Virus record (IMG/VR): IMGVR_UViG_3300030101_002145
Coordinates: 1 to 26,232 of that record
Source of the DNA: a virus
Direction: 5' to 3' (one strand)
DNA length: 26,232 bases
The stretch's first letter is position 1. Every line of letters starts with the position of its first letter. The notes beneath the pieces are model-generated. The model saw nothing but the letters and a program-made list of their open reading frames with translations. It did no database searches and had not been told where the DNA came from. A program made the position numbers and the translations under genes. Shown here piece after piece: positions 4,274-22,783 of this stretch.

Positions 4274-5227
4274 ATGGAAAAAGCACAAGGAAAATTGACA
4301 AGCGATAATCATGCTAGTTGTTCTGGACTTGCTGCCCTTTTTGGGGTTAGTGGTTATGAAACTAGAAATGAATATTTAGATTCAAGGATAAGAGCAAGAA
4401 AGGGTGAGAATGTTAGATCAGAAAAAGGCATCCACGCTGAAATGGGAAATATTTTGGAAAATCCTATTCTTGAAATCACAGCAGAAAAATTAGGTTTACA
4501 TAATTTAAAAAAAGATATAACTACTCCTGTATTGCATGAAGAATATCCTTTAGGTGGTTCAATAGATGGTATAGCTTATGCTCTTAATCACTCAGTAAAG
4601 CCTGATAATGAACTTATCTATACCGAAGATGACCAAGAAATTTTATTGCATGGACAAGGCATACTAGAAGCTAAAGCTACAGGTAACCATCCAGAAGAAG
4701 ATGGAAAGCCACCTTTGTTTCGTGGTGTCTTGCAAGTAAAAGGATTGATGGCGATAACTGGCTATGATTGGGCTTGTGTCTCAACTTTGCATAGATCAAC
4801 AATGCTTAAAATTTTTCTGCTTAGAAGGGATTTAAAATTTGAGTCAGAACTTAAGGATGTGATCTTGGACTTTGAAAGAAGGATCAAAGAAGCTGACTAC
4901 TATCCACCAGTCACCCATAAAGACACTCAAATCATGTTTCCAAGTCCTGAGACATCGAAGGTGGTTGATTTAAACAATAACGAAGCCATAGGTCTATGTA
5001 AGAGCATTGTGTCGGCTAAAGAGCAAATAAAAGGTCTGAATGATGTCATAAGTGGTGCTGAAATCAGACTGCAAGAAATGATGGGAGATGCAGAGATTGG
5101 CAACATGAATGGTTTTGAAACATCTTGGAAAACAACAACAAGAAAAACCAAGATGGTAAGTGTGCCTTTAGATGAACCAGTCACAACCAGAAACAAAACT
5201 GTCAGAGTCAAAAAGTTAGAAGATTAA
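4274..5227 (+). CDS. YqaJ-like viral recombinase/exonuclease (PD-(D/E)XK)
   Basis: A 317-residue protein matching the YqaJ-type phage recombination exonuclease, relative of lambda Exo. Conserved features in order: Glu56 and Glu62 in the GIHAEMGNILENPILE helix, GGSIDGIA with Asp98, ILEAKAT giving Glu132-x-Lys134, and a QVKGLMAITGYDWACVS helix-strand with Gln154. These form the metal-binding nuclease core that resects double-stranded DNA ends. The C-terminal 90 residues are a coiled-coil-like region and a basic tail. AAGGAG lies 10 bases before the ATG. No beta/RecT-type annealase is seen nearby; the SSB-like protein across the divergent region may be the partner, which is inference. Confidence 0.8.
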   Translation: MEKAQGKLTSDNHASCSGLAALFGVSGYETRNEYLDSRIRARKGENVRSEKGIHAEMGNILENPILEITAEKLGLHNLKKDITTPVLHEEYPLGGSIDGIAYALNHSVKPDNELIYTEDDQEILLHGQGILEAKATGNHPEEDGKPPLFRGVLQVKGLMAITGYDWACVSTLHRSTMLKIFLLRRDLKFESELKDVILDFERRIKEADYYPPVTHKDTQIMFPSPETSKVVDLNNNEAIGLCKSIVSAKEQIKGLNDVISGAEIRLQEMMGDAEIGNMNGFETSWKTTTRKTKMVSVPLDEPVTTRNKTVRVKKLED

Positions 5228-5247
5228 GGATGATGGGGGTAACCTAA

Positions 5248-5352
5248 ATGGCAAGTGGTGGTGTCATAGACCAAAACAAGATGAAGTGCAGTACCCATCA
5301 AACTTATTTTTCATATCCTGTGAATCTTGTTGTCCACCACATTTTACCATGA
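5248..5352 (+). CDS. Micro-ORF upstream of the HNH gene
   Basis: A 34-residue ORF from the ATG at 5248, preceded by GGGGGT, ending in a TGA that overlaps the ATG of the HNH gene (ATGA). The tight coupling argues for translation. The peptide has Cys/His residues (KMKCSTHQ and VVHHILP) but no recognisable family. It could equally be a leader that feeds ribosomes into the HNH frame, or remnant sequence left by insertion of the HNH gene. Confidence 0.35.
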   Translation: MASGGVIDQNKMKCSTHQTYFSYPVNLVVHHILP

Positions 5353-5885
5353 AGATATGTAAAGACTGTAACCAACAAAAAGAACTGACAGCTTTTTACT
5401 ACAACAAAAAAAAAGACTTGTATGAGACCAGTTGTAAAGTTTGTCGTGCCAAAAGAAAAAGAGTTCATATTTCAAGCAGTCCAAAAGAATATATAAAGAA
5501 CTTAGTTCATCAATCTAAGAACAGAAGCAGAGCAGGATTGTTTTTTAGCATCACACCTGATGAAGTCTATAAGATTTATCAGAAGCAAAAGGGTAAATGT
5601 GCTATCTCAAATATCACAATGTCGTATGTCAAAGATGGTAAAGGTGATCTGATAAACAACTACAAAAATATTTCAATAGATAGGATTGATAATGCTAAAC
5701 CATATTCTTTTCAGAATGTTCAGCTTATATGTGTAGCTTTGAATTTTTGGAAAAGGAATCTCAGCAATGAAGATTTTTGTTTAGTGCTTGATTTATTTTA
5801 TAAAGGAATGTCTGGTGATACTTCAGTAGGTGACAGACACCCTATGCGATTTTTTAAGCACTCGCATTTAATAAAGAAGAATTAG
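5349..5885 (+). CDS. HNH endonuclease with N-terminal zinc-ribbon
   Basis: A 178-residue protein taken from the ATG at 5349, because the frame upstream lacks an ATG and the conserved region begins at MKICKDC. Cys4-x2-Cys7 and Cys29-x2-Cys32 form a zinc-ribbon-like knuckle. The HNH core follows: GKCAISN (about 95-101), then NISIDRIDN with the DRIDN motif, and FQNVQLICVALNFWKRN carrying the conserved Asn residues. Free-standing HNH proteins of this kind are common in phages as homing endonucleases or DNA-processing nicking enzymes. It is the last gene of the rightward island and overlaps the convergent lysozyme gene by 32 bases tail to tail. A homing origin would explain its position but is not shown. 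Confidence 0.7.
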   Translation: MKICKDCNQQKELTAFYYNKKKDLYETSCKVCRAKRKRVHISSSPKEYIKNLVHQSKNRSRAGLFFSITPDEVYKIYQKQKGKCAISNITMSYVKDGKGDLINNYKNISIDRIDNAKPYSFQNVQLICVALNFWKRNLSNEDFCLVLDLFYKGMSGDTSVGDRHPMRFFKHSHLIKKN

Positions 5886-18249: not shown

Positions 18250-18645
18250 TTATTCTTTCAGACTATTTCTAGCAACTCCTTTCATTTTTTCATAAGTTCT
18301 CATACCACCAAGCCCTAAAAGCGAAAGTGTTAATGTTAAAAGTCCTTCAGTTTCTATTTGAGGTAAAGGCACATCACTACCACTCACAACAATAATCCAA
18401 TTCAACATAGGTGCTAAAAAATATGACCAAAATAAACCAAAACATGCCACCCACATAATCGCAGGTCTAGCACCTGAGACGAATATTGAAGAATGTTTAG
18501 CTTGTTCTTTGTTTACTTCAATTTGTGCTAAATTAGCTTTATGTATTTCAGTTCTTAGTTCATGTTCTAGCCTTATTTTAAGGTCTTTATCAACAATGAA
18601 TTTATCTAATATTGCACTTACTGGTTGTATTAACTTATCAATCAT
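18250..18645 (-). CDS. Holin, GTA_holin_3TM type
   Basis: A 131-residue protein matching the 3-TM holin superfamily: an amphipathic, charged N-terminal helix (residues 10-50), a SGARPAIMWVACFGLFW first membrane segment, a second (FLAPMLNWIIVV), and a third (TEGLLTLTLSLLGLGG), with a basic C-terminal tail beginning RTYEKMK. Such holins permeabilise the inner membrane for the endolysin. It is placed in the head-tail operon, about 12 kb from the lysozyme. Joined to the upstream gene by TAATG. Confidence 0.75.
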   Translation of the reverse strand: MIDKLIQPVSAILDKFIVDKDLKIRLEHELRTEIHKANLAQIEVNKEQAKHSSIFVSGARPAIMWVACFGLFWSYFLAPMLNWIIVVSGSDVPLPQIETEGLLTLTLSLLGLGGMRTYEKMKGVARNSLKE

Positions 18646-19537: not shown

Positions 19538-19564
19538 TAAAAAAAGGGCTACCGAAGTAGCCCT
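19538..19564 (-). terminator. Rho-independent terminator after the capsid gene
   Basis: On the minus strand, AGGGCTAC and GTAGCCCT form a perfect 8-bp stem (19545-19564) closed by the very stable TTCG tetraloop, followed by seven T residues (19539-19545). It lies 21 bases past the capsid stop. Because more virion genes follow in the same direction without a strong promoter in between, it probably acts as an attenuator that makes capsid mRNA more abundant than head-tail mRNA. Confidence 0.9.
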
Positions 19565-19584: not shown

Positions 19585-22500
19585 TTAAGTCACAATGTCT
19601 TTACATACTGAAAAGGCATTTTCGTCTCTGATTGCAACATCCATATCTTGGAAGAAAGCAAGTCTTGTTGTTCCTGCTGAACTTCCTGTGTACGGATCAA
19701 CTACTACATCAACACCTGAGTAATACCCAAGCAATAATTGTGAGAAGTCACCAAATAGTAGAGCAGATAGGTTTGAACCTGATCCTTTCGACAAGTCGGA
19801 TGGTACTAATGAAGATGATAAGTAGTCATAACCAAACATTTGATTGTTAGGTTCAAGAATAAAATTACCTTCAACACCACTAGCCTGTTTTGATGTTGTT
19901 CTCAATTTAGCAGTTACTTTAGCGTTACCTATGAAGTGAACACTACCATCATTTCTGATTGCATTGTCTTCTTCAACTAATTTAATCATATCAACTAGGT
20001 TTGTGTAAGCAAATGCACCACCATTTGTTCCTATAGATACAACATTGTTTGACATTGTGCCTATTAGACCTGATGGTTCATTTGATCCACCACCTTCTAA
20101 TGCAACACCATCAATTTTTCTTGCGAAAGATTGAATAATATCGTCTCTGACTATCTGTTCAACAGACGGATCAGATTGCATCATTAATTTTCTGCTCAAG
20201 TCTATGAAACAAGCTAAAGTCTTTGGAGACATTGTAACTTGTGCATAAGTTTGGCTTGATTCAGAAGGTGCTGCGTTTTCTGCTACAAATGAAGCATTGT
20301 TTACTGAAGCTGAAAGTTTAGGAATAGCAACATCCCCTTTTAGCCCTTGTAATACTCTTGCTCCTGCCTGACCAATAACTAGATTTTCATAAACTGCTTC
20401 GATGAACTCATTACCAAGATGATCTGTTCCTTTTAAGAATCCACCTGCATTATTTGTTCCAACAGTTAAATCCCTTTTGCCAAAACCAATATTTGTTGGC
20501 ATATAGAATCCTCTTGCAGCTTTGCCAGTTTGAGCAGCTATTTCATCAGAAACTTCTCTTTCAAGTCCTGATAATTTGCCACTTGCACTTTCTCTGATAG
20601 CTTTAATAAGAGAATAATCTCTTTTCTCTGCTACATTCATATCGACATCGGATGGTAAATCCAATGGCTTATCGTTTGCGATTGCACCTAGAAGTTTACC
20701 TCTAAATTGTTCAAGAGAATCACCATTTGCGATTGACTCATGTGCTAAGTCTCTCTTGTTGTGTTGAACACCAAGATCGATAATAGCTTTTGATTCTTTA
20801 GCAAATTTTTCTCTTAACTCATTAGGATTTACTTCAGGAACATTATTAATTTCTTTAGTTTCCATTTTATTTTCCTTATTGTTAATGGGGTTAATTTCAA
20901 TTTTTGTTTGTGCTTTTTCTATATTTCTTGCGAATCCAACTGACGGACTGGAATCAGCAGGAATTGAAACTGCACTAACCTCTAAAGGAGACCAAGAATT
21001 GACTCTATAGATAGGAACACCCTCTCTTTCTTCATCTTCTTTTTCCATACTATTGACTTGATAGCCAACAGATATGTTTTGTCGTATGCCATCTTTCACA
21101 TCTTGAAAGACCTCGTCAGCCATTCTATTTTTAGAAAAGCGAACTTTAGCTACTGTTCTTTTGTTTGCTTTGTCGATACCAAACTCCTCAACTACTCCTA
21201 TTTGTTTGGTTGAATCGTGGTCTAGTAAAAGTGGACTTCTACCACTTGCCATAAATTCCATATCTATTTCTTCTTCGTTATGTCCTAAAACTTCAAAACC
21301 AAATCTTCTTTGAACTGGTTTCTCACTTGATACACCAATGACAACTGTTCTTTTTTCTTCGTTTATTTTTTCTCTATCGAAATCAAAGTTTCTTTTTAAA
21401 TCTTCTTTGGCATAAAAATCTAATATTTCTGAATTTGATCTATCTTCATCTTCCTTAAAGCCTTTTTCTTCTTCGTCATAATGATATGGTCTTTTTTCTT
21501 CTTCTTCTTCTTCGTGATAGGGTTCGTGAGGTCTATCTTCTTCCATTTGTCTTGTTGAAATTTTGCCACCCATGCCTTTGTGATTTACACAATAGTAGTA
21601 AAGATCAGGTGTGTCATCATCCACCATTATTTTTATACTTGCACCTTCTTCACCTGCTTTACCATTTATTTCAACACCTTGCTTATATTCTTCACCTTCG
21701 TTATGTGAACCATCTTCTGTTGCTGAGAATCTAAGAGCATGAGTTTTATTTGAGCCATCGCTTATATTAAAAATATATTCATTGCCTGAAAGCATAATTA
21801 GACTTGGTGAGTTTTCACCATCTAAATAAAACTTGTTTCCTTCACCATATTTGTTTTCACCTTCTTTGATGATAACTTCATATTCTATGGTTTCTTGTCT
21901 TGTTTCATTATCCATATCAGCTATTCTATCACCATTTTCTTTAGAAGATAAAGGATGTTCTTTCGGAAGTAGGTCTGTATCGAATTTGTTTTTACTTGGG
22001 AATCTCAAATTTCTAAGAGCAAATAAGAAAGCATTTACTCTAGCATAAGCCCATTGTTCGGGTGATGCCACACTTGGTCTGACTGAAGATGGGTTCGTTT
22101 TGTATGCACCTATACCTCTTTCAAAGACTGCCAACAACATTCTATAAGTTGCTCTTTTTCTTTTATCATTACCATATTCTTCATTGTGATCTTCTACTTT
22201 TTTTCTTAATCCCTTTTCAACTGTTTTACTTACTTGCCTTTCTGCTGATCTATCTTCTTTATCTTCTAAGTATTTGACAGCTTCTAAAATTACATCTTTC
22301 ATTTTTTGTTCACCTAATGTACCTATCACAAGCCATTTCATCTGAGCTACAATTCCTGCAATATTAGATGGTCTTGCTTTTTTATCACCTGACTTAAACT
22401 GTCCACCATCTTCAAAATGTCTTGCAGCCCATGATTCTCTTTCTTTTATCTTTCGTAAAACAGCAGGAGAATCATCACCATCTAATGCTCTTAATAGTAA

Positions 22501-22659
22501 TCTGTAAGAGTTGTTGCCTTCAATGTTGCCACCTGCTTTCCATATCTTAGGATCATCTTCTTTTATAGAAGCAGCAAAGTTCCTATCAAACAAAGGATAG
22601 TTAGAATTTCTTAGTGATATTTTTTTATCATCACCTTTTTTGGGAAAGTCAGTTGCCAT
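19585..22659 (-). CDS. Capsid polyprotein: unknown domain + cupredoxin-like + S78 protease + HK97-fold major capsid protein
   Basis: A 1024-residue polyprotein. I start at ATG 22659 (GGAAG 10 bases upstream) because the earlier ATG at 22701 lies deep in the small gene 22649-22783. Residues about 15-235 are an unrecognised phage domain with ERGIGAYKTNPSSVRP and PEQWAYARVNAF. Residues 258-369 resemble a cupredoxin, with His307, Cys357, His360 and Met363 (CVNHKGM) in the type-1 copper arrangement. An acidic linker follows. Residues 426-581 are an HK97/S78 prohead protease, with His481 in LLLDHD and Ser530 in NISVGY, then PLEVSAVSIPAD. From about 599 to the end is an HK97-fold major capsid protein, its first 120 residues forming a delta-like region. 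Protease-capsid fusions are known; the N-terminal additions are unusual. Confidence 0.85.
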   Translation of the reverse strand: MATDFPKKGDDKKISLRNSNYPLFDRNFAASIKEDDPKIWKAGGNIEGNNSYRLLLRALDGDDSPAVLRKIKERESWAARHFEDGGQFKSGDKKARPSNIAGIVAQMKWLVIGTLGEQKMKDVILEAVKYLEDKEDRSAERQVSKTVEKGLRKKVEDHNEEYGNDKRKRATYRMLLAVFERGIGAYKTNPSSVRPSVASPEQWAYARVNAFLFALRNLRFPSKNKFDTDLLPKEHPLSSKENGDRIADMDNETRQETIEYEVIIKEGENKYGEGNKFYLDGENSPSLIMLSGNEYIFNISDGSNKTHALRFSATEDGSHNEGEEYKQGVEINGKAGEEGASIKIMVDDDTPDLYYYCVNHKGMGGKISTRQMEEDRPHEPYHEEEEEEKRPYHYDEEEKGFKEDEDRSNSEILDFYAKEDLKRNFDFDREKINEEKRTVVIGVSSEKPVQRRFGFEVLGHNEEEIDMEFMASGRSPLLLDHDSTKQIGVVEEFGIDKANKRTVAKVRFSKNRMADEVFQDVKDGIRQNISVGYQVNSMEKEDEEREGVPIYRVNSWSPLEVSAVSIPADSSPSVGFARNIEKAQTKIEINPINNKENKMETKEINNVPEVNPNELREKFAKESKAIIDLGVQHNKRDLAHESIANGDSLEQFRGKLLGAIANDKPLDLPSDVDMNVAEKRDYSLIKAIRESASGKLSGLEREVSDEIAAQTGKAARGFYMPTNIGFGKRDLTVGTNNAGGFLKGTDHLGNEFIEAVYENLVIGQAGARVLQGLKGDVAIPKLSASVNNASFVAENAAPSESSQTYAQVTMSPKTLACFIDLSRKLMMQSDPSVEQIVRDDIIQSFARKIDGVALEGGGSNEPSGLIGTMSNNVVSIGTNGGAFAYTNLVDMIKLVEEDNAIRNDGSVHFIGNAKVTAKLRTTSKQASGVEGNFILEPNNQMFGYDYLSSSLVPSDLSKGSGSNLSALLFGDFSQLLLGYYSGVDVVVDPYTGSSAGTTRLAFFQDMDVAIRDENAFSVCKDIVT
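20863..20877 (-). promoter_or_regulatory. Internal in-frame ribosome site and ATG for free capsid protein
   Basis: Inside the polyprotein frame, AAGGA (20873-20877) lies 7 bases before an in-frame ATG at 20865. The ATG falls precisely between the protease and capsid domains (METKEINN). Spacing and strength are better than at the full-length start. An independent capsid protein of 427 residues, about the size of HK97 gp5, would result. This may supply the large excess of capsid over protease. Confidence 0.6.
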
Positions 22660-22783
22660 GTTTTGTTTTCTTCCATTTATATTTTTTTGGGTTTTCACCA
22701 TTCTTACCGAATATTTTTATCCAGTTTTGATAAAACTCATCATCAGATATTGTCTTTGGTCTAACTTTGCTGCCTTTACTCAT
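22649..22783 (-). CDS. Small basic protein between portal and capsid genes
   Basis: A 44-residue basic protein beginning MSKGSKVRP and with FYQNWIKIFGK in the middle. I recognise the pattern of N-terminal GS..RP followed by F..NW..IFGK from short phage proteins of head and tail operons, with no assigned function. It starts within the portal gene's last codons (8-base overlap) and its stop overlaps the ATG of the capsid polyprotein by 11 bases. This coupling is also the reason for choosing the 22659 start for the polyprotein. Confidence 0.65.
   Translation of the reverse strand: MSKGSKVRPKTISDDEFYQNWIKIFGKNGENPKKYKWKKTKHGN

Follow-up and report, generated by a model that had tools for sequence, protein, structure and literature searches.

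Several viral head-assembly systems provide the background for the gene described here. In phage HK97, an S78 protease (gp4) and a capsid protein with an N-terminal delta domain that is removed on maturation (gp5) are encoded by two separate genes. In phage lambda, an in-frame internal start in the protease gene C gives rise to a second, C-terminal head-assembly product, Nu3; this short product is the scaffold, and the capsid protein comes from a separate gene. With herpesvirus UL26/UL26.5 and retroviral Gag/Gag-Pol, a few protease-bearing and many protease-free versions co-assemble and so bring the protease into the particle, the versions being generated by a separate nested transcript or a frameshift. 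Fusions of protease and capsid protein are already an established kind in phages. The families phrog_617, phrog_4523, and NF045541 likewise combine an S78 protease and an HK97-type capsid protein in one frame, annotated as one product, and a "major capsid and protease fusion" is named in actinobacteriophages and Rhodobacter RcC phages (PMC9671004, PMC8601537), where the passages on these fusions make no mention of an internal start. We found no report of a second start in protease-capsid fusions in the open literature, which, for a search of mainly open-access papers, is weak evidence of absence. A conserved start of this kind, yielding the capsid protein, is apparently undescribed.

The window analyzed here is a stretch of 26,232 nucleotides, positions 1 to 26,232 of IMG/VR virus record IMGVR_UViG_3300030101_002145. 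The initial annotation had recognized a capsid polyprotein frame at 19585 to 22659. The open reading frame was verified, but its orientation had to be corrected to the minus strand, on which it runs from the ATG at 22659 to the stop at 19585. A second in-frame ATG lies upstream at 22701; because a stop directly precedes TMATDFPKK in the relative L001 (94% identical), the full-length protein probably begins at 22659. The fusion gene comes after the genes for TerL, a head-tail joining protein, and a lambda-type portal, and is itself followed by a hairpin. The domains are ordered as a helical module, a DUF5824-like segment, a cupredoxin-like segment, an acidic linker, the S78 protease, a short joint, and the capsid protein, as listed below.

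22670..22674, minus strand: GGAAG, weak ribosome-binding site of the full-length start (-3.3 kcal/mol, 10-nt spacer)
19585..22659, minus strand: full-length fusion gene, stop included (1024 amino acids, 114 kDa)
22312..22659, minus strand: N-terminal helical module A, about residues 1 to 116
21955..22242, minus strand: DUF5824-like segment, about residues 140 to 235
21541..21888, minus strand: cupredoxin-like segment, about residues 258 to 373, with invariant His and C-x2-H-x2-M
21397..21540, minus strand: acidic linker, probably disordered
20923..21339, minus strand: predicted S78 prohead protease domain, about residues 441 to 579, conserved His/Ser/Glu positions kept
20873..20878, minus strand: TAAGGA, internal Shine-Dalgarno (SD) site, 7-nt spacer to the internal ATG
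20863..20865, minus strand: internal in-frame ATG, residue 599, predicted start of the free capsid protein
19585..20865, minus strand: reading frame of the free capsid protein (426 amino acids, 45.6 kDa)
20446..20865, minus strand: presumed delta/scaffold region, residues 599 to about 738
19588..20445, minus strand: HK97-fold core, about residues 739 to 1024, homologous to the R4C mature chain 8GTA
19545..19564, minus strand: intrinsic-terminator-like hairpin and T-run, directly after the stop codon

Elsewhere in the structural operon, a GTA-type 3TM holin gene (18253 to 18645) sits between head-closure and tail-terminator genes. The contig is mostly minus-strand apart from two plus-strand genes at 4274 to 5885, encoding a RecE-like exonuclease and an endonuclease VII-like protein.

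Profile and structure matches identify the window protein as a fusion of a predicted S78 protease with an HK97-type major capsid protein. Pfam Phage_capsid matched at 4.7e-33 and Peptidase_S78 at 2e-08 (35 bits, against a cut-off of 21), and the S78 His/Ser/Glu positions are invariant in alignment A1 as H77, S126, and E89. A single profile, phrog_617, spans both protease and capsid (E = 2.8e-115, profile positions 6 to 624 of 626). The window protein missed the curated NF045541 cut-off of 525 bits, scoring 152.7 bits over the protease part only; eight other phrog_617 fusions tested likewise fell below it. Among solved HK97-fold capsids, the capsid part matched 8GTA at E = 7e-27 and HK97 gp5 at about 1e-4. 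The gene shares with HK97 an S78 protease and a capsid protein with a presumed delta region, but as a single fusion gene rather than two, and its lineage differs from the known fusions in adding N-terminal modules.

These modules vary across the family. By profiles, 247 of 436 fusions are plain protease-capsid proteins, and the remainder mostly have either of two modules at the N-terminus. Two relatives, L018 and L019, are 94 to 95% identical to the window protein over residues 1 to 255 and only 68% identical over the protease-capsid part, and they lack the cupredoxin-like segment, which shows exchange of N-terminal modules within one gene. DUF5824 scored 22.2 bits on the whole protein and 25.8 bits on the N-terminal piece alone, around its cut-off of 25. 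The cupredoxin-like part is a rare accessory, present in only 7 of the 436 fusions. That the initial annotation was right to call it cupredoxin-like is supported by PHROG matches and by an invariant H...C-x2-H-x2-M in the 7 sequences (H48, C98, H101, and M104 of alignment A3), which is the His, Cys, His, Met pattern of type-1 copper ligands; the other searches gave the name no backing. The segment had no Pfam match and no PDB sequence match, its AlphaFold model was weak (mean pLDDT 57), and azurin and Ig domains were equally weak fold hits. Residues 1 to 420 were likewise modeled with low confidence (mean pLDDT 58), and PDB fold searches with these low-confidence models of residues 1 to 420 and of the segment returned nothing at E <= 0.001.

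The joint between protease and capsid holds an in-frame ATG at 20865 preceded by AAGGA, as was initially annotated; the full site is TAAGGA at 20878 to 20873, 7 nucleotides from the ATG. The full-length start was said to have the weaker ribosome site, and pairing with the anti-SD sequence of the 16S tail bears this out, at -3.3 kcal/mol compared with -6.2 kcal/mol for the internal start. Internal pairing was the stronger in 32 of 46 sequences, but the full-length start often has a good SD too and in other members can match the internal one in strength, so the ratio of the products is not predicted from sequence. The window joint reads AAG GAA AAT AAA ATG (K-E-N-K-M), and that of Roseobacter phage CRP-821 reads CAA AGG AGT GAT CCC ATG (Q-R-S-D-P-M); the two share the SD but differ in its codon phase and in the encoded peptide.

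Relatives were compared in a first alignment set (eighty IMG/VR loci, Roseobacter phages CRP-406, CRP-811, CRP-821, and CRP-823, and more distant phages) and in a full set of 436 usable fusions, prophages from many bacterial groups included, which fall into 57 clusters below 50% identity. The residues of the joint linker vary freely, while a Met is nearly always present with AGG or a close variant upstream. With joints taken as profile-anchored linkers, an in-frame ATG was found within the joint in 55 of 57 clusters and an ATG with an SD core in 47, compared with 74% and 16%, respectively, for length-matched windows from other parts of these genes; for ATGs in frame +1 of the joint, an SD was seen in just 6 of 57. 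Among the relatives aligned first, for which a few starts were mis-assigned, an SD core preceded 88 of 93 junction starts versus 13% of 1851 other in-frame Met codons. Four clusters at 70% identity had no ATG, and three of them carry GTG with a strong SD; pairing at internal GTG starts was -10.3 in L193, -9.3 in L339, -5.9 in L281, and -10.2 in L518. The exceptions are cyanophage-like fusions, kin of S-CBS1, S-CBS3, and S-LBS1, in which the ATG is kept and the SD mostly lost, perhaps reflecting hosts that rely less on SD pairing. These include L095, L096, L089, L272, L286, L288, and related loci, where the ATG often lies within C-rich sequence. The internal start had been presented as an arrangement of this phage, with conservation in homologs as one check. 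The site proved to be no peculiarity of this phage: its nucleotides are conserved throughout the fusion family, and it recurs in unrelated fusion families.

What is conserved is the nucleotide sequence and not the residues, so we rejected the idea that the joint encodes a conserved peptide, be it a motif or a cleavage site. The GG of the SD falls in all three codon phases (78, 23, and 9 cases, in a count for which the best start was chosen partly by SD energy) and encodes differing amino acids. When codons were drawn from each gene's own usage, the synonymous null gave a mean pairing of -4.4, and the observed mean was -6.8 (P = 3e-8, 56 clusters). Limiting the test to joints with a single ATG, which removes the bias of start choice, gave P = 8e-7, and no synonymous SD excess was seen at 830 control Met codons elsewhere in the genes. 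This synonymous-codon test ruled out a chance SD arising from K-E codons. The mRNA near the internal site is less structured than the rest of the gene (mean z = +1.7; positive in 125 of 133), which could partly reflect the low-GC linker (mean GC difference of -12 points). The residue after the junction start was Pro, Ser, Asp, Glu, Thr, Ala, Asn, Lys, or Gly in 96% of cases compared with 60% after other Mets, and Pro alone followed 17 of 56 junction starts versus 3% of other Mets. The SD, the codon bias, the open mRNA, and the N-terminus-like residue are separate hallmarks of a working translation start. They show that a start signal is present and that selection maintains it at the nucleotide level throughout the fusion family. 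The window gene has the conserved in-frame internal SD and start codon of a lambda C/Nu3-type nested start, although here the short product would be the capsid protein with its delta region.

The claim that a free capsid protein is made from an internal start is strongly supported by this comparison, and we consider it very probable that the gene makes two nested products, a 114-kDa fusion and a 46-kDa free capsid protein. We infer from the signal that initiation actually occurs there, and likewise infer in what ratio the products are made, that they co-assemble, and what becomes of the N-terminal modules. Ribosomes starting at 22659 would make the fusion, comprising the N-terminal modules, protease, delta region, and capsid core; those starting at 20865, with its better SD, would make the free protein, comprising the delta region and core. 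Because the assembly domain is common to both, a minority of fusions would co-assemble with a majority of free subunits. This would put the protease inside the prohead, where the delta regions and the protease itself would be cut off. It is plausible that the fusion is the minority product that carries the protease into the prohead. The two products are predicted to arise by internal ribosome binding, unlike those of UL26/UL26.5 and Gag/Gag-Pol.

HK97-type proteases cut themselves off, and the best-surviving alternative is that only the full-length fusion is made and that its own protease, present in cis, cuts the joint early, in the cytosol, the conserved motif being a peptide such as a cleavage site. 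The Dinoroseobacter phage R4C (L456) bears on this, being a member of the fusion family with an internal SD-ATG at residue 189 but, unlike the window protein, without N-terminal modules. Its mature shell, determined by cryo-EM, has T=7 and 415 subunits, and the modeled chain is residues 362 to 629 of a 629-residue ORF (PDB 8GTA, PMC10276861); the main text of that paper never uses the term "protease". The mature shell lacks everything before residue 362, as early cleavage would have it, and begins about 170 residues past the internal start, so that both protease and delta region are missing from the model. The equivalent residue in the window protein is near 739, and by analogy with R4C and HK97 the delta region at 20446 to 20865 is presumed to be removed on maturation. 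Since the R4C shell would lack protease and delta whichever start was used, N-termini of virion proteins, which had been proposed as a test, cannot reveal the internal start. Against early cleavage, the amino acids of the joint are not conserved, whereas the nucleotides are, in three phases and with ATG or GTG, and synonymous codon bias favors SD pairing. Furthermore, the N-terminal mass of 415 full-length copies (68 kDa each) comes to 28 MDa, or about 34,000 cubic nm, and the interior of an HK97-sized prohead to about 33,500 cubic nm at an assumed inner radius of 20 nm. As the N-terminal parts would about fill the interior, cleavage would have to precede assembly, and a prohead built of fusions only is otherwise hard to imagine. 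We regard early cleavage of a single product as very unlikely.

Still less probable is an internal promoter with a separate mRNA that yields the free capsid protein. It would still need the internal SD-ATG, which would serve that mRNA, but the coding strand showed no promoter-like match immediately before 20865, and the region contained 8 such matches versus 11.5 expected from shuffles.

Two nested products are also suggested by fusions that are unrelated to the window family. An S78-type protease is fused to a capsid protein of another Pfam family (PF25209, with five of the six checked) in Stenotrophomonas phage S1, Vibrio phage 1.049.O, Shewanella phage 1/44, RcKemmy, a Mu-like Bordetella phage, and Paenibacillus phage Pd_22F, and an internal SD-ATG was present in all six. 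Among the clusters of this second family, 20 of 21 had the ATG and 17 of 21 the ATG with SD, against 13% in the control, in a count that omits 23 of 86 capsid loci without a fused protease by profile. In Microbacterium phage Anseraureola, residue 166 is encoded by an internal ATG with GAGAGGA before it; the relative L547 retains the whole SD-ATG in a displaced position. Other relatives have split protease and capsid genes: in the gut phages Faecalibacterium phage Epona and Dulem virus 34 (L457 and L459), the capsid gene begins at the corresponding joint, with SD pairing of -11.6 and -12.0. Such split homologs, with their strong SDs, would fit an internal start that is an unused relic of two genes fused through loss of a stop codon, but that is the least probable reading, as a relic should decay and this signal has instead survived between clusters less than 50% identical, is preserved through the choice of codons, and is seen again in Microbacterium phages as well as in at least two fusion families that are unrelated. 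Separately, in Roseobacter phage CRP-823 (L083), a T-run at about 4490 is one T longer than in CRP-821, which separates the N-terminal module from the protease-capsid part, and the two are annotated as two major capsid proteins; this may be a sequencing error or a real split.

The breadth of this recurrence is the main surprise. The internal start signal is found in phages that infect enteric bacteria, pseudomonads, Rhodobacter, marine bacteria, Paenibacillus, and Microbacterium, and its presence in hundreds of distantly related phages suggests a general means of producing abundant shell subunits alongside a few that bear the protease. The cupredoxin-like and N-terminal segments might be delivered into the head, as was initially envisaged. 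We think it rather unlikely, but conceivable, that all phage protease-capsid fusions, in at least two unrelated capsid families, run a Gag/Gag-Pol-like scheme by internal initiation, with the region before the protease accommodating interchangeable modules (here one that is cupredoxin-like and binds copper) that are carried into the head at low copy and possibly released or ejected. Encoding protease and capsid in one gene poses a problem of stoichiometry, as hundreds of capsid subunits are needed per HK97-type shell and far fewer proteases. A conserved hidden start would solve this and give the protease a built-in entry to the shell, and the scheme would be the equivalent, among viruses of bacteria, of Gag/Gag-Pol and of UL26/UL26.5 in herpesviruses. 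The second product would then be needed in every capsid annotation and every mass-spectrometry search for such phages.
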